Below, in pieces: positions 30,117 through 37,225 of a stretch of DNA of 64,000 bases (positions are counted from its first letter, which is position 1; each line of letters opens with the position of its first letter). The stretch is from Saliphagus infecundisoli (GTDB lineage: Archaea; Halobacteriota; Halobacteria; Halobacteriales; Natrialbaceae), in the NCBI RefSeq assembly GCF_020177375.1, contig NZ_JAIWHV010000002.1, positions 124,001-188,000 on the forward strand. The letters run 5' to 3'. Below the pieces are notes generated by a model, which did not search any database, had not been told where the DNA came from, and was given only the letters and a program-made list of their open reading frames with translations. Position numbers and translations under genes: made by a program.

Positions 30117-31799
30117 TTAGCTGAACTTCTGGACCGTCACGTCGAGGGTATCGAGGTCGACGATCGGCGCGAAGCCGGCGTCGGGCTGGATGTTGTTTCG
30201 CTTCTGGAAGTCCGTCTGTGACTGCCAGCACCCGGAGTTGATCGCGAGCACGCCGTGGTACTTCCCGAAGCCGAGCTTGTGGACGTGGCCCGTATGGAAG
30301 ACGTCGGGGACCTCCTCCATCAGCAGATGGTCTTTCTCCTCGGGCGCCAGACGGGTGTGGCCCCCGAACTGGGGGGCGACGTGGCGCTTTTTGAGAAGCT
30401 GGTACATCGCCTTGTGGGGCTCGTCGTAGCTCGCCTTCTCGGCGGGGAGTTCGGCGATCACCTCGTCGAGGGAGCGGCCGTGGTACATCAGGACGGAGAC
30501 GCCCTCGACGGTCACCGTCGCGGGGTTGCTGACGATCCGGGGATCGTGGGCCGACATGATCCCGCGAAGCTCCTCGTCGAACCCCGGCTGGGGTTCCGCG
30601 AGCCGAACGGCGTCGTGGTTGCCCGGGATCATCACGATCTCGAGATCCCCGGGGACGCCCTTCAGGCGCTCGTTGAACGCCTCGTACTGGTCGTAGATGT
30701 CCACGATGTCGAGTTCCTCGTCCTGGCCGGGGTAGACGCCGACGCCCTCGACCATGTCGCCGGCGATCAGGAGGTACTCGACCCGCTTGGCCGCGTCGGT
30801 GTGGAGCCAGTCGGCGAAGGCGTCCCAGGCCTCGCCCATGAACTCCCGGCTCCCGACGTGGACGTCGCTCACCAGCGCCGCCTGGACCGGCCGGTCGGCC
30901 GTCGAGGGCTCGTGGGTCCGGGGGACGTCGGGGAAGTACATCGAGTCGACGAAGGCGATCCCCGCATCGTCCGCGAGGGTGCCCTCCATCGCGAGCACCT
31001 CGTCGAAGAGCAGTTCGTCGACGAGCCCGGCGTACTCCCGATCCTTCATCACGAGCCACGGGAACGTGCCGGTGGCGTCCTCGAGTTCGATCAGCCAGTG
31101 GCCGCTGGCCGTCGAGCGAACGTCGTTAACGAGGCCGACCATTCCGGCCTCGCTGCCGCCGGGCATCGACCCGATTGCGCTCGCGGGCCGGTGGTTGACC
31201 CGCCCCTTCAGCTTCGAGCCGAGCCGGTCGAGGCGGTCACGAAACACCGCCACGAAGTCCCGGTACTCCCCGGTCCCCGTGCTTGCGCCGGTCATGTCGC
31301 CGGCGATCTCGACCTCCCGATCGCCGCGTTCGACGGTTTCGCGCTCGACGGTCTCGCGGTCGGCCACCCGGCTCTCGGATTCGGTTTCGCGGCGATCTTC
31401 CCCGTCGACGTCCGGCGGCTCCGACCCCTTCGTTTCGACTGGAGACCCCCCACCCCCGTCGCTGGGACGTTCGGGATCGGTTCCAGTTGAAACGGAGGGG
31501 TCTTCGGGGGCGGAGCCCGAGTCGGGCATCGGGCCGAGTCGCCGCTCGGACCCGTCCGAGCTTCGGTCCGATCGGCCGTCCCCACCCGTCCCGTCTCCCG
31601 CCCGATCGACCGCCGCGCGGGCCGACCGGACCAACTCCGGCCGGATCACCAGCGCGTCCTCGGGCGTCTCCCGAAGCACGCGCTCGAGGACGGCCGCCGG
31701 CCGTTCGCTGTCGGCGATCATCGCCACCGTCTCTCGGTCGGCGTTGTAGCCGCGGCTCGTCAGTTCGCGGACGATCCGGGCGGCCCCCTCTACGGACAC
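30117..31799 (-). CDS. polD1: DNA polymerase D small subunit (DP1, exonuclease)
   Basis: A 560-residue DP1 subunit of the archaeal replicative polymerase D; provides 3'-5' proofreading. N-terminal helical domain (residues 1-65), then a long disordered acidic linker (~70-180), an OB fold (~190-290), and the calcineurin-like phosphoesterase with ALVSDVHVGSREFM, AGDMVEGVGVYPGQ, MIPGNHDAVRL, MYHGRSLDEVI and TGHVHKLGFGKYHG. Start is GTG 31799. The linker coding region contains two ORB-like origin boxes (31424-31444 and 31480-31501), one translating to SPVETKG. Divergent from the signal peptidase gene and near orc1. Confidence 0.95.
   Translation of the reverse strand: MSVEGAARIVRELTSRGYNADRETVAMIADSERPAAVLERVLRETPEDALVIRPELVRSARAAVDRAGDGTGGDGRSDRSSDGSERRLGPMPDSGSAPEDPSVSTGTDPERPSDGGGGSPVETKGSEPPDVDGEDRRETESESRVADRETVERETVERGDREVEIAGDMTGASTGTGEYRDFVAVFRDRLDRLGSKLKGRVNHRPASAIGSMPGGSEAGMVGLVNDVRSTASGHWLIELEDATGTFPWLVMKDREYAGLVDELLFDEVLAMEGTLADDAGIAFVDSMYFPDVPRTHEPSTADRPVQAALVSDVHVGSREFMGEAWDAFADWLHTDAAKRVEYLLIAGDMVEGVGVYPGQDEELDIVDIYDQYEAFNERLKGVPGDLEIVMIPGNHDAVRLAEPQPGFDEELRGIMSAHDPRIVSNPATVTVEGVSVLMYHGRSLDEVIAELPAEKASYDEPHKAMYQLLKKRHVAPQFGGHTRLAPEEKDHLLMEEVPDVFHTGHVHKLGFGKYHGVLAINSGCWQSQTDFQKRNNIQPDAGFAPIVDLDTLDVTVQKFS
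31424..31444 (-). promoter_or_regulatory. ORB-like box inside polD1
   Basis: Minus-strand CCAGTCGAAACGAAGGGGT differs by one base from the intergenic origin boxes CCACTCGAAACGAAGGGGT. It lies in the disordered-linker codons of polD1. With 31480-31501 it forms an inverted pair with G-tracts pointing outward. Confidence 0.6.
31480..31501 (+). promoter_or_regulatory. ORB-like box inside polD1, opposite orientation
   Basis: GTTCCAGTTGAAACGGAGGG followed by GT; three differences from the intergenic box over 22 bp. Inverted relative to 31424-31444, about 35 bp apart. Confidence 0.45.
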
Positions 31800-31868
31800 A
31801 GCCCCTCATTGACGAGCGCCGAGAAAAACATGGCGAACGGGGAGAGCGAACAGAAGGTTGATTGTCGA

Positions 31869-31885
31869 CCCCGTCGAAACGGGGG
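31869..31885 (+). promoter_or_regulatory. hairpin / partial ORB-like sequence before signal peptidase
   Basis: CCCCGTCGAAACGGGGG is a perfect stem (CCCCGT/ACGGGG) with loop CGAA, ending 3 bp before the ATG of the signal peptidase. The GTCGAAACGGGG half also resembles an ORB core. Either a translational hairpin or a weak Orc1 site in the polD1/sec11 divergent promoter. Confidence 0.3.
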
Positions 31886-31888
31886 CCA

Positions 31889-32902
31889 ATGAACGGCCCC
31901 GGCTCCGACGACCCTCCGGAGGAGACGCCCGACGACCGGTCGTCGGCGTCGAACTCGGAGCCGACGGCCGAGTCCGGAGACGGGAAGGGTGCCGACCGCT
32001 CGCGGCCGGAGGAGGCGACCGCGAACGGAACCGGCGCGCCAGTCGCCGGGGATCGATCGGCCGACGGGGAGCCCGACGCTCCCGAACGGGAATCGACGGG
32101 GAGAGAACGGGATCTCGAGCCGACGGAGGCCCCGATCCGGTGGTTCCTCCGGACCGACAACGGGACGGTCGTCGCGATCCGGGACGTGGCCAGCAGCGTC
32201 GCGATCGTCGCCCTGATCGGGCTCGTCCTCTTCGGCGTCAGCGGGATCTGGCCGCCGATGGTCGCCGTCGAGAGCGGGAGCATGGAGCCGAACATGCAGA
32301 AAGGCGACCTGGTCTTCATCGCCGAGGAGGGGCGGTTCGTTGGCGACGGCCCGATCGGCGATACGGGCGTCGTCAGCGCCGAAAGCGGCACCGAGAGCGG
32401 CCACGAGAAGTTCGGCCAGGCCGGCGACGTCATCGTCTTCCGGCCCGACGGAAGCGAGTTCCGGACGCCGGTGATCCACCGGGCACACTTCTGGGTCGAA
32501 CCCGGCGAGAACTGGGTCGCAGAGCAGGCGAATCCCGACTACCTGAACGGTGCGACGACCTGCGAGGAGGTGGTGACCTGCCCGGCGGGCCACGCCGGCT
32601 TCGTCACGAAAGGCGACGCCAACGACGGCTACGACCAGGTAATGGGTACCGGCGCATCGACCGACGTCGTCAGACCCGCCTGGATACAGGGGAAGGCGAT
32701 GTTCCGGGTCCCGTGGCTCGGCCACGTCCGCCTCGCCTTCGACGACCTCCTCGCGACGGGGCCGACCGCGATAGAGCCCGTGGCCGCAGCGGAGGCGTCG
32801 CCGGCCGGATCGACGCCCGCGTCGGTCGGCACCGCTGGCCTCGTGGCCGGCACGGTGGCGATCGGAACCGTGACGGTCGCCCGGCGGCGACTGCGGAACT
32901 GA
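31889..32902 (+). CDS. sec11: signal peptidase I (S26, archaeal type)
   Basis: A 337-residue type I signal peptidase that cleaves Sec/Tat signal peptides on the outer face of the membrane. A long disordered acidic N-terminus (residues 1-85) precedes a membrane helix (about 96-120, SSVAIVALIGLVLFGVSGIW). Catalytic Ser131 is in AVESGSMEPNMQKGD; the His is in TPVIHRAHFW (archaeal enzymes use Ser-His-Asp); GFVTKGDAND supplies the Asp region. A second helix is at the C-terminus (TAGLVAGTVAIGTVTVA). The 85-residue acidic N-terminal tail is longer than usual. Start ATG 31889; an upstream TTG at 31862 is less likely. Confidence 0.9.
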   Translation: MNGPGSDDPPEETPDDRSSASNSEPTAESGDGKGADRSRPEEATANGTGAPVAGDRSADGEPDAPERESTGRERDLEPTEAPIRWFLRTDNGTVVAIRDVASSVAIVALIGLVLFGVSGIWPPMVAVESGSMEPNMQKGDLVFIAEEGRFVGDGPIGDTGVVSAESGTESGHEKFGQAGDVIVFRPDGSEFRTPVIHRAHFWVEPGENWVAEQANPDYLNGATTCEEVVTCPAGHAGFVTKGDANDGYDQVMGTGASTDVVRPAWIQGKAMFRVPWLGHVRLAFDDLLATGPTAIEPVAAAEASPAGSTPASVGTAGLVAGTVAIGTVTVARRRLRN

Positions 32903-33005: not shown

Positions 33006-34880
33006 TCAGTTGTCGAACCGGGCCTGGACGAACGGCTGGACGTCGTCGATGTCCGAGAGCCGCGAGTCCGAGAGGAGCACGACCTCGGTCTCCTCGATGG
33101 GCACCGAGAGGCTGATCTCCTTGGTCCGGCCGTACCGGCCCTTCGAGACGACGACCGCGTTGACGATCCCCAGCATGTCGAGTTCGCTGATGAGGTCCGT
33201 GACCCGGCGCTGTGTGAGGACGTCGGCGTCGATCTCCTCACAGAGACGCTTGTAGATGTTGTACACCTCGCCGGTGTTGATCGAGTGGACGCCGTTCTTC
33301 TCCAAGAGGATCGTCGCGAACAGGACGAGTTTCGACTGGGTCGGGAGCGTGCGGACGACCTCGACGACGCGGTCGAGTTCGATCTTGTCCTGGGCCTGTC
33401 GGACGTGGTCCTCGTCGATCCGCTCTGCCTGCCCGCGTTCGGCGAGTTCCCCCGCCGTCCGGAGGAGATCGAGCGCGCGCCGGGCGTCGCCGTGTTCCTG
33501 GGCCGCGAAGGCCGCACACAGCGGGATGACGTCGGCCGAGAGCACGCTCTCCTTGAACGCGACCTCCGAGCGGTGCTGGAGGATGTCCCGGAGCTGGTTG
33601 GCATCGTAGGGCGGAAAGACGATCTCCTCCTCGCCCAGACTCGACTTGACACGGGGGTCGAGGAAGTCGGTGAACTTCAGGTCGTTGCTGATCCCGATGA
33701 TCGACACCCGGGAGTTGTCGAGTTCGGAGTTCATCCGCGAGAGGTTGTAGAGGGTGTCGTCGCCCGACTTCTCGACGAGTTTGTCGATCTCGTCCAGCAT
33801 GATGACGACCACCCGCTCGGAGTAATCGACCGCCTCGAAAAAGACGCTGTACACCCGGTCGGTCGGCCACCCCGTCATCGGTACCTCCTCGAACCCCTCC
33901 AGGTCGGCCTCTAACTCCTCGATCCGGTCGCGAACCTCGTCGACGGAGGCGAAGCCGGTTCCGACGAGTGGGTGACCCGACTCCGCTCTCGCCTGCTCCT
34001 CGGCGTCCGGGATCTCGACCCGCTCTCCTTCGGATTCGTCCCCCTCGTTGACGAACCCGCCCTCGGGATCCGCCTCGGGATCGACGATCGGGTCCGGCTC
34101 GACGGCCGAGGCGAGATCGGTCCCGGACTCCGAATCGGACCCCCCCGTTTCGACTGGAGGATCTTCGGATTCGGCGTCGCTTTCGGCTGTTTCCGGTCGT
34201 TCGAGGGTATCGGGATCGTCCGGGCTCCCCGCCGCGAAACCGTCCTCGCCGGGGGCCGACTCCGACTCGCCCGTCGCGGGTTCGGAACCGTCTCCGGTCG
34301 GGCCGGCCGATCCGCCGGCGGAGTCGGCACCCTCCCGACGTCCCCCGTCGATCCGTCCGTCGTACTCCTCGGCCGCGGAGAGGAGGGAGTCGAGCGTATC
34401 GAGTCGTTCCTCGATGATCCGCTCGTTCTCCTCGATGAACTTGTTCGCGAGCTGGGCGAGCACCCGGTACTGGGTGTCCGTGACCTCGCAGTTGATGTAC
34501 TCGACCTCGCAGGGGACGCTGTACTTCGAGGAGGTGGTCTCTAGCTCCTTGCTCACGAACTTCGCGCTCGCGGTCTTTCCCGTCCCCGTCTTCCCGTAGA
34601 TGAGGATGTTCGAGGGGGTCTCTCCGCGGAGCGCGGCGACGAGGATCGTCGCCATTTTGTTGATCTGGTCGCTCCGGTGGGGGAGCTCGTGGGGCGTGTA
34701 CGACGGACGGAGCACCTCCTTGTTGTCGAAGATCGGCTCGCCCGAGAGGAGGTCGTCGAACAGGCCCTGGCCGGGGTCGTCGCTCCCCGACTCGGCCTCC
34801 CCGCTCGACCCGAAACCGCGCGTGGAGGCGAGGTCGATCTCTCGACTCGAACCCGTCGTCTGTGAATCGTCGTCAGACAT
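33006..34880 (-). CDS. orc1: Orc1/Cdc6 replication initiator
   Basis: A 624-residue AAA+ initiator that binds origin recognition boxes and loads MCM. Walker A GKTGTGKT at residues 96-103; Walker B MLDEID at 361-366; sensor-1 IIGISNDLKF; sensor-2 HGDARRALDLLR; C-terminal winged helix from about residue 520 (TLPTQSKLVLFATILLEKNG onward). A ~150-residue acidic, low-complexity insertion (about 170-325) lies between Walker A and B; haloarchaeal origin-linked Orc1 proteins often have such an insert. The insert encodes PPVETGG, whose DNA resembles an ORB. Transcribed away from the origin region directly upstream, as usual for an origin-proximal orc1. Confidence 0.96.
   Translation of the reverse strand: MSDDDSQTTGSSREIDLASTRGFGSSGEAESGSDDPGQGLFDDLLSGEPIFDNKEVLRPSYTPHELPHRSDQINKMATILVAALRGETPSNILIYGKTGTGKTASAKFVSKELETTSSKYSVPCEVEYINCEVTDTQYRVLAQLANKFIEENERIIEERLDTLDSLLSAAEEYDGRIDGGRREGADSAGGSAGPTGDGSEPATGESESAPGEDGFAAGSPDDPDTLERPETAESDAESEDPPVETGGSDSESGTDLASAVEPDPIVDPEADPEGGFVNEGDESEGERVEIPDAEEQARAESGHPLVGTGFASVDEVRDRIEELEADLEGFEEVPMTGWPTDRVYSVFFEAVDYSERVVVIMLDEIDKLVEKSGDDTLYNLSRMNSELDNSRVSIIGISNDLKFTDFLDPRVKSSLGEEEIVFPPYDANQLRDILQHRSEVAFKESVLSADVIPLCAAFAAQEHGDARRALDLLRTAGELAERGQAERIDEDHVRQAQDKIELDRVVEVVRTLPTQSKLVLFATILLEKNGVHSINTGEVYNIYKRLCEEIDADVLTQRRVTDLISELDMLGIVNAVVVSKGRYGRTKEISLSVPIEETEVVLLSDSRLSDIDDVQPFVQARFDN
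34139..34160 (-). promoter_or_regulatory. ORB-like sequence inside orc1 insertion
   Basis: Minus-strand CCTCCAGTCGAAACGGGGGG plus GT; keeps the CCA-TCGAAACG core but has GGGG in place of AAGG. It encodes PPVETGG in the non-conserved acidic insert of Orc1. Confidence 0.35.
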
Positions 34881-34894
34881 CCGTCGTATGCGTT

Positions 34895-34916
34895 ACCCCT
34901 TTGTTTCGTGTGGAAC
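34895..34916 (-). promoter_or_regulatory. origin recognition box, orc1-proximal
   Basis: Minus-strand GTTCCACACGAAACAAAGGG plus GT; two differences from the strongest boxes. It sits 15 bp upstream of the orc1 ATG, so Orc1 binding here could also autoregulate its gene. Confidence 0.75.
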
Positions 34917-35390
34917 GCGGACCGGAAACGAGCGATACTCGCCCATATGTGGCCGAAATCGGCCGGGAAACCGTCTCCCATCCCTCGCCCGAGTCCAGTT
35001 GATGCAGACGAACCAGAGGAATAGCTAGCTAATAAGTCCTTCCCTTCAACGGCAACGACACTCGGATTGCGGGACTACTTCGACGGAATATACGTCTCGA
35101 CGAGTCGGCGTTCGACGAGGTCGATCCGTCCTCGAGGGGAAAGTCGGGTCGCAACCGCCTCGGCTCGAGTGGAACGAGGGGTGTCCTCGTCGGGTCGATC
35201 GATACAACGGGGACCGAGCCCTCGAGAGGAGAACCGAGCTCACGACGGGTCGGATCGCGAACCCCGAGCTCGGAAGAGCGACGGAAAGCGAGAACAGGTG
35301 TGGATCGGAGCGTCCGGAGAGGGTGAAGCGACGGGTTCGGATGGAGACCCGCAACGGACGTGACGGATTAGGGAGGGATGAAGAGCGAAC

Positions 35391-35417
35391 CCCCCACCCC
35401 TTCGTTTCGAGTGGAGA
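35391..35417 (-). promoter_or_regulatory. origin recognition box (left arm of inverted pair)
   Basis: Minus-strand core CCACTCGAAACGAAGGGG followed by TGGGGG. Identical over 24 bp to the box at 35701-35727 but in opposite orientation; the G-rich end points toward orc1. Confidence 0.85.
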
Positions 35418-35700
35418 GCGATCCGGATGGGTGGGGGAGGGGGGTTCTCTAGAACAGGTGGTTTTATTTGGGTGGGAGGGAAACAGTATCCGCAACACTA
35501 GCAAACCGAGCGATTTACTAGATTTGTGGTAGTCGTTACTAGTCCTTCCGATCTCCCCCGTGGCTTGCTGGTCCCGTTCGGTTGATTTCTCCGCTTTGCT
35601 CCCGAGTGGCTTCTCTCGCCTTTCTCTCGCCGGTTTCGTCTCTCGATCGATCCCCTCGTCGCTGCCTTCGTGCCGACTGTTCCGAACCGCCCCTCGTTCG

Positions 35701-35727
35701 GTTCCACTCGAAACGAAGGGGTGGGGG
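35701..35727 (+). promoter_or_regulatory. origin recognition box (right arm of inverted pair)
   Basis: GTTCCACTCGAAACGAAGGG then GTGGGGG. Inverted partner of 35391-35417, 285 bp away, flanking the A/T-rich stretch; the G-rich end points away from the centre. Confidence 0.85.
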
Positions 35728-35923
35728 TAGGTCGCGGGGTCGGTCCGTGGTACCTTTACTGGCTTCGGCGTCGCTCGCGGCGGCTCCCTCCCCGTTGTAT
35801 TACCTTCCTTCTTCGTGAGGCCGACGGGTTCGATGGACTCGTCGAAAGGGACTCACCGGGGAGCTCCCACCGACATGGTCGACTGCTGGAGAGAGTTCTT
35901 CCTCTCGACGACGGCCCTCCGAA

Positions 35924-37225
35924 CTACTCCGATCGAAGCTCCGCGAGCATCGTCGACATTCGGTTCAGGATCAGGCCACAGAAGACCCCGAGGACGCCGA
36001 CGATCGTCAGGAACAGGGCGACGAGCGTCCGGCCGGGCGCGATCGCACCCTGGGCGTTGTACGTCGCGGCGACGTCGACGCCGAGGGCGAGTCCGGCGAG
36101 GGTCAAGACGAGTCCGGGAACGCCGAAGAAAAGCAGCGGATGGCGGTCCCGGATGAGTTGCACGAGATAGGTCGCGACCCCGAGCCCGTGGCGGATGGGG
36201 TTGTACGTCTGGCCGTCGATCCCCTCGTAGCGGACGTCGATGGGAACCTCCTCGATCCGCATGTCGGCGTCCATCGCGGTCCCGATGAGTTCGCTCTCGA
36301 CGCCCATCCCGTCGGTCCGGATCGAGAGGGTGTCGACGGCCTTCGGCGAGAACGCTCGGAACCCGCTCTGGGTGTCCGAGAGGTGCGTTCCACTGGAACC
36401 GAAGGTGAGGACGTCGAGGAACTGCTGGCCGAACCGGCGGTAGAACGGGGTCTCGCCGCCGCTTCCCTCGAGATACCGACTGCCGACGACGAGATCGGCC
36501 TCGCCCTCCTCGATCGGTTCGGTCACCTTCGGGATGTCGTGGGGGACGTGTTGGCCGTCGCCGTCAAGGACGATGACGGAGTCGGCGTCGGCGGCCCGCG
36601 CGTACTCGAAGAACGTGTATAGCGCGCTTCCTTTCCCCTTGTTCTCCGCGTGTTCGATGACCGTCGCGTCGGTGTTCCTGGCAATCGCTGCCGTGTTGTC
36701 GGCGCTGCCGTCGTCGACGACGACGACCTCGTCGGCGTACTCCTGGGCGGCGATGATCGTGCTGCCGATGCCGACGGACTCGTTGTAGGCGGGGATACCG
36801 ACCAGCCGGCCGGTCTCCCCTCGAATCGGCGCGGAGATCGCGTACTCCGGGGCGGAGTGAACCGCCTCGTGACAGCTATCGAGGTCGATCTCGTCGCCGG
36901 CTTCACAGAGGGCGATCCCGCCCGCCCCCGCGGTCCGGGCGGCCTCGACGAGGCGTTCGCGGGCGTCGTCGACGCTCCCGCAGTCGGCGGGTTCGACGAT
37001 CGTGGCGTCGGTCTGGTCTATGGCCGCCTCGGTGTCCGCGGAGATCCCCCAGGGGACGATGAAGACGGCGAACCCGTCGCGGATCGACTGGAGGACGGTC
37101 CTGTGAAGGTTGTTCTCGCCGTCCTCGGTCGCGAGAACCCCGATGGCGACCGGCTCGGAGCGAACCCGCTCGTGATCGTCCTCGGCGAACTCCGCCCGGT
37201 TCGTGTTCGTGAACGATTCAGACAT
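35924..37225 (-). CDS. membrane glycosyltransferase (GT2, DPM-like) with N-terminal extension
   Basis: A 433-residue protein. The N-terminal ~140 residues form a separate region (PVAIGVLATEDGENNLHRTV; nucleotide-binding-like but unassigned). The GT2 domain starts about residue 142 (VGIPAYNESVGIGSTIIAA), with VVDDGSADNTAAIA and the DxD-containing VLDGDGQHVPHD, then DTQSGFRAFSPKAVDTL and GMGVESELIGTAMD, typical of dolichyl-phosphate-sugar synthases. Two C-terminal membrane helices (LLFFGVPGLVLTLAGLALG and LVALFLTIVGVLGVFCGLIL). Likely makes a dolichol-linked sugar for surface glycans. A strong TATA-like TAAAAACC lies near 37309. Confidence 0.85.
   Translation of the reverse strand: MSESFTNTNRAEFAEDDHERVRSEPVAIGVLATEDGENNLHRTVLQSIRDGFAVFIVPWGISADTEAAIDQTDATIVEPADCGSVDDARERLVEAARTAGAGGIALCEAGDEIDLDSCHEAVHSAPEYAISAPIRGETGRLVGIPAYNESVGIGSTIIAAQEYADEVVVVDDGSADNTAAIARNTDATVIEHAENKGKGSALYTFFEYARAADADSVIVLDGDGQHVPHDIPKVTEPIEEGEADLVVGSRYLEGSGGETPFYRRFGQQFLDVLTFGSSGTHLSDTQSGFRAFSPKAVDTLSIRTDGMGVESELIGTAMDADMRIEEVPIDVRYEGIDGQTYNPIRHGLGVATYLVQLIRDRHPLLFFGVPGLVLTLAGLALGVDVAATYNAQGAIAPGRTLVALFLTIVGVLGVFCGLILNRMSTMLAELRSE

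Follow-up and report, generated by a model that had tools for sequence, protein, structure and literature searches.

Introduction

The main replication origin of the haloarchaea, oriC1, has been described as a set of inverted initiator boxes (ORBs) bearing G-strings, which surround AT-rich DNA upstream of an oriC1-type orc1 gene and lie within a conserved gene order (PMC3528665, PMC3936714). The known cases, including Haloarcula hispanica oriC1-cdc6A, Halobacterium oriC1-orc7 and Haloferax volcanii oriC1-orc1, have inverted G-string ORBs on either side of an AT-rich stretch, and likewise stand upstream of an oriC1-type orc1 and adjoin the polD1 and signal peptidase genes. In H. hispanica the G-strings are essential for oriC1, and an internal G-rich inverted repeat, which is not present in all haloarchaea, has been ascribed an enhancer-type function (PMC3936714). 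The cdc6A gene of this organism proved far harder to delete than oriC1, from which the authors inferred a role for the protein beyond oriC1 (PMC3936714).

ORB clusters off the origin proper are already known for oriC2, where the ORB-rich element oriC2D, downstream of cdc6E in H. hispanica, exerts negative control, probably through titration of Cdc6. The main ORB survey was confined to intergenic regions (PMC3528665). Here we describe a 64,000-nt stretch of the genome of Saliphagus infecundisoli (contig NZ_JAIWHV010000002.1, positions 124,001–188,000; hereafter the window), in which a very probable oriC1 is accompanied by further boxes in the orc1 promoter and within the coding sequences of orc1 and polD1.

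Initiator boxes in the window

The ORB core was scored as TCCA-NNN-GAAACG-RAGGGGT. At up to three mismatches, five matches were found in the window, compared with none in 100 shuffles of it, and the whole genome (4.53 Mb) contained eight such sites, compared with none for the reversed pattern. Six of these eight are packed into approximately 4.3 kb (Table 1), and three lie in coding sequence, namely an inverted pair in polD1 and one box in the insertion of orc1. An earlier note on this DNA had named three boxes, two flanking AT-rich DNA and one before orc1, all of which were recovered; its reading was incomplete, because it missed the two boxes in polD1 and the one inside orc1. Single ORB-like sites were seen at 26844 of contig C22 (L012, 1501–1521), ~130 kb from oriC1, and at 280115 of the same contig (L016, 1501–1521), ~120 kb from oriC1, the latter where the gene of an NMD3-like protein, adjacent to htpX, begins.

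Table 1. Genes, initiator boxes and associated elements of the oriC1–orc1–polD1 stretch (window coordinates).
Feature	Position	Strand	Details
polD1 (DP1, small subunit of DNA polymerase D)	30117..31799	-	NF003116, 930 bits
polD1 intragenic ORB 2	31424..31444	-	Encodes PVETKGS on coding strand
polD1 intragenic ORB 1	31481..31501	+	Encodes DPSVSTG on coding strand
Signal peptidase I homologue	31862..32902	+	Between orc1 and polD1, divergent from polD1
orc1 (Orc1/Cdc6 initiator, oriC1 type), with long acidic insertion	33006..34880	-	NF001625, 651.7 bits; Cdc6_C, Cdc6_lid
ORB-like box in orc1 insertion	34139..34159	-	From whole-genome ORB scan; without G-string
orc1 promoter ORB	34895..34915	-	TTCCACACGAAACAAAGGGGT; 2 mismatches; without G-string
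Left oriC1 ORB with G-string	35391..35416	-	1 mismatch to ORB; G-rich end leftward
G-rich tract directly inside left ORB	35424..35447	+	Read from sequence
AT-rich trough, candidate unwinding element	35481..35540		41.7% GC
Right oriC1 ORB with G-string	35702..35727	+	Inverted repeat with left box; G-rich end rightward
Family 2 glycosyltransferase bordering origin	35924..37225	-	Glycos_transf_2

The origin upstream of orc1

The intergenic region upstream of orc1 (34881–35923) contains at least two inverted ORBs with an AT-rich element between them, and adjoins an oriC1-type orc1 that is followed, in the conserved order, by a signal peptidase gene and polD1. Regarding the linkage of these three genes that had been proposed in the earlier note, orc1 and polD1 were recognised by profile search, whereas the signal peptidase match is weak, falling below the curated cut-off of its model (TIGR02228, 47.9 bits against 51.85). 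A homologue of this gene occurs in 72 of 81 oriC1 loci. On the opposite flank, the glycosyltransferase is outside the conserved oriC1 neighbourhood, and had no homologue in the 80 other oriC1 loci sampled.

The left and right boxes form a perfect inverted repeat, with 25-nt arms (35391–35415 and 35703–35727) that are 100% complementary and separated by 287 nt, and both carry GGGGTGGGGG. As had been claimed, the DNA that they flank is AT-rich: it includes the 60-mer of lowest GC in the intergenic region, which, ranked by GC against every 60-mer of the window, belongs to the bottom 0.33% and encloses the AT-rich string GATTTACTAGATTTGTGG (about 35512–35529). The G-rich tract next to the left box corresponds to one half of the enhancer-type inverted repeat known from H. 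hispanica oriC1; its C-rich counterpart on the right side is weak, and the locus may differ from the known haloarchaeal origins in that the repeat is clear in its left half only. Upstream of orc1, 89 of the 96 relatives examined possess an outward-facing ORB pair, both boxes of which carry G-strings in 88 cases. The spacing of this pair is variable, with 51 values in all and 5–95% limits of 184 and 337 bp.

The locus has the features by which haloarchaeal oriC1 has been described (PMC3528665, PMC3936714), in agreement with its earlier identification as a chromosomal origin, and by its sequence features it can be assigned with high confidence as the main origin. Orc1 bound at the two G-string ORBs would recruit MCM to the AT-rich stretch that they enclose. 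The origin itself is of a known kind and adds nothing new. Analysis of GC skew, which had been suggested as a check, was carried out as cumulative G−C over 400 kb of the contig (0–400 kb), and placed a minimum at 155 kb, close to oriC1 at 159 kb; its support is modest, because the curve dips almost as far again near 340 kb. This modest signal would suit a region that is merely the orc1 promoter, with no active origin in this strain, a reading that is nevertheless very unlikely, as every sequence requirement of oriC1 is present, including both G-strings.

Boxes in the promoter and coding sequence of orc1

The third box named in the earlier note lies 14 bp from the ATG of orc1 (the A being position 34880) and, provided that the transcript is leaderless, overlies what we take to be the expected position of the haloarchaeal TATA element. 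A box was found at the promoter in 88 of 97 distinct orc1 genes, in 65 of these at −33/−32, and the reversed, opposite-strand and shuffled patterns all scored zero; the idea of initiator autoregulation, previously raised from the position of the box alone, gains support from this conservation. With the box over the TATA stretch expected of a leaderless transcript, autorepression is plausible, and Orc1 binding at this third ORB would allow the protein to repress its own gene.

The acidic insertion of Orc1 comprises roughly 160 residues between AAA+ motifs (window 34040–34400), and its length varies among relatives. A coding-sequence box of the kind found here occurs in 44 of 97 orc1 genes, mainly in the family to which the window belongs, and the peptide usually encoded is SPVETEGS. 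The synonymous null is weaker for this box (median 0.0015) and is non-significant in some genes. A decayed partner at 48 bp is frequent in relatives, and in one genome both boxes of an inverted pair at this 48-bp spacing are intact inside orc1 (L287, 1780–1832).

A pair of initiator boxes inside polD1

The two polD1 boxes match the ORB core and are arranged as an inverted pair, 57 bp from start to start, with their G-rich ends outward. They lack the extended G-string of halophiles, which was found in 4 of 78 polD1 boxes compared with 147 of 177 oriC1 boxes, and are therefore not claimed as origin ORBs of the oriC1 type; the promoter box and the orc1-insertion box lack it too. Consistent differences from the oriC1 boxes are also found in sequence, with CAGT in place of CACY, and GGAGGGGTC in place of GAAGGGGTGGGGG. 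The boxes encode approximately residues 99–125 of DP1, and the DP1 model has a pLDDT below 50 across residues 70–152, suggesting that the host region is a disordered linker, free to carry a DNA element.

The pair recurs, inverted, in a first sample of 80 oriC1 loci from the order Halobacteriales. Where polD1 adjoins orc1 (67 genomes), 41 have the pair at no more than 7 mismatches in 40, and although spacings of 40–79 bp were allowed, 37 of these pairs are spaced at 57 bp and the other four at 54 bp; the reversed pattern and ten shuffled patterns yielded no pairs in the same 67 genomes. When both cores had to match exactly and the gap between them could vary from 25 to 55 nt, the pair was found in 131 of 392 Halobacteriales genomes, representing 47 of 96 genera, compared with none for the reversed pattern, and among the 30 examples fetched, 29 were inside polD1 and one was near orc1. 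Named genomes, covering Natrialbaceae, Haloarcula, Halomicrobium, Haloferax, Halobellus, Haladaptatus and others, provided 80 loci, with a spacing of 57 bp in 71, 54 bp in three, 69 bp in three and 75 bp in one, the remainder being one weak match at 78 bp and one Halorubrum with a single box. By contig matches and best hits, the window's own organism groups with the Natrialbaceae. When distinct polD1 genes were considered (n = 139), the pair was present in 97 at up to 6 mismatches and in 127 at up to 10 of 40, and these 127 pairs included 115 at 57 bp and seven at 54 bp, a rigidity that contrasts with the variable spacing of the oriC1 pair.

Some lineages depart from this pattern. Seven of the 139 distinct genes have no box with four or fewer mismatches, in several genomes of one further family the pair is decayed but has kept its 57-bp spacing exactly, and four loci, from a Halorubrum and three apparent relatives, have kept one polD1 box, often with zero mismatches; these single-box genomes could be a natural half-site experiment. 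Two further ideas on the provenance of the pair were rejected: an origin older than the haloarchaea, as 11 polD1 loci from non-haloarchaeal members of the phylum all lacked a pair of the standard motif, and a mobile or viral element, as the exact core pair occurs in no viral contigs.

In three genomes where polD1 lies ~14–78 kb from orc1, the pair remains in polD1, and it can thus be said to belong to this gene and not to the core of oriC1. Since no genome examined had polD1 at a great distance from oriC1, the pair may need proximity to the origin.

Selection on DNA, peptide or RNA

Across the 104 genes with 57-bp spacing, between-species identity is 84% and 81% for the two boxes and 36% for the 38-nt stretch between the 20-mers, the latter being about the random level. 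When the box peptides were recoded synonymously by the codon usage of the respective genome, 2000 draws per gene gave no equally good match in 40 of the 41 genes. Codons that are otherwise rare are fixed in the boxes, including GTT (37/41; background 0.088), ACT (33/41; 0.087) and CCA (40/41; 0.11), together with GGA (33/41; 0.137) and GAA (41/41; 0.319). In addition, a single DNA box, present in two orientations, is translated into two unrelated peptides, DPSVSTG and PVETEG. As recoding of the same peptides almost never recreates the boxes, selection acts on the DNA rather than the peptide, and the pair is almost certainly an element conserved at the DNA level.

The identical codon phase of 111 of 111 genes, and the conservation of the peptides within a variable linker, would also be expected if the island were a DP1 peptide motif (DPSVSTG ... 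PVETEG), with DNA identity as a by-product. This is extremely unlikely given the fixation of rare synonymous codons and the near-total failure of recodings to match, the origin of unrelated peptides in one box read both ways, a spacer of fixed length and random sequence, and the modelled disorder of the region. It is just as improbable that the inverted repeat serves as a stem-loop in polD1 mRNA: although its two complementary arms are ~36 nt apart, they lack covariation (173 of 1000 partner shuffles pair equally well or better), leaving an RNA stem unsupported, the three arm differences in the window become A–C or C–A mismatches in the mRNA, and both arms match the ORB consensus.

Probable binding protein and proposed role of the polD1 pair

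The conserved DNA element in polD1 is likely to be bound by Orc1. Its 20-nt core is almost identical to that of the oriC1 boxes, nearly all ORB-like sites of the genome fall within the oriC1–orc1–polD1 stretch, and ORB types follow their adjacent Orc (PMC3528665). Because the polD1 boxes depart consistently from those of oriC1, both at position 5 and beyond GGGGT, a paralogous Orc/Cdc6 or some other protein could be the binder, and haloarchaea possess many Orc paralogues (PMC3528665); this is fairly unlikely, the promoter and orc1-insertion boxes being likewise devoid of a G-string.

A regulatory, non-initiating role for the pair is suggested with moderate confidence. The absence of G-strings, a spacer with no AT enrichment (0.350 against a gene mean of 0.353) and the H. 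hispanica data together favour a site of Orc1 control at which replication does not initiate. Orc1 would thus have a second target, formed by inverted ORB cores without G-strings in the linker-coding DNA of polD1, which it would occupy as a complex of fixed geometry. Such a complex could keep Orc1, and perhaps MCM, off oriC1 and so restrain the origin, and/or stand as a roadblock in polD1, making transcription of this gene depend on the level of Orc1, with transcription blocked when this is high. A single pair is a small sink, which speaks against titration, and the retention of one box or none in some lineages also counts against the reading as a whole.

The outward-facing arrangement, shared with the oriC1 boxes, allows a different role to be envisaged, in which the pair, as a compact version of oriC1, serves for initiation in a minor or dormant capacity, two inverted Orc1 molecules loading MCM between the boxes, much as ORB-bound Orc1-1 of Sulfolobus steers MCM between inverted ORBs (PMC12141716). 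Only 36 bp separate the boxes, however, the spacer is no richer in AT than the rest of the gene, and the G-string that is essential at H. hispanica oriC1 (PMC3936714) is missing, making initiation at this site unlikely.

Taken together, the explanation that we consider reasonably probable combines oriC1, promoter autorepression and a conserved, non-initiating Orc1 target in polD1. Whether all or nearly all haloarchaea carry a rigid double Orc1 site inside polD1 that feeds back on polymerase expression or initiator supply is, on the present comparisons, an evenly balanced proposition. If it is true, origin licensing would be coupled to replisome supply through DNA concealed in a coding region.

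Comparison with known systems

No report of ORBs inside polD1 was found in the open-licence literature, supplements aside, and a rigid pair of initiator boxes that is kept within this gene through the haloarchaea seems unreported. Origin prediction restricted to intergenic DNA has overlooked conserved initiator-box elements in coding sequence, and the polD1 pair points to a control site that is unstudied. The control of initiation level in archaea is poorly understood, and a conserved initiator-type site, off the origin and at a polymerase gene, offers a concrete handle on it.

In Sulfolobus, the inverted ORBs of oriC1 (ORB2-DUE-ORB3) guide MCM onto the intervening DNA (PMC12141716). That element is intergenic and its DUE carries the ucm motif, whereas the polD1 pair has no AT-rich spacer. 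In E. coli, datA and intragenic DnaA boxes are initiator-binding DNA that lies off the origin and modulates initiation. Protein and motif are unrelated to those considered here, and datA is IHF-dependent and contains no rigid inverted pair within a replicase gene. A citation of datA is found in PMC4010727.

A further likeness is to oriC2D, which also places initiator boxes off the origin proper in a probable restraining role. It differs in being a cluster that belongs to a separate origin and a separate Cdc6, and titration of its type involves many ORBs downstream of the cognate cdc6 that are required for restraint of initiation, whereas here there are two boxes only, inside polD1. The polD1 pair, though no member of the oriC2D class, may by analogy work like it, as a single intragenic pair with a fixed 57-bp spacing that has been conserved through the order.
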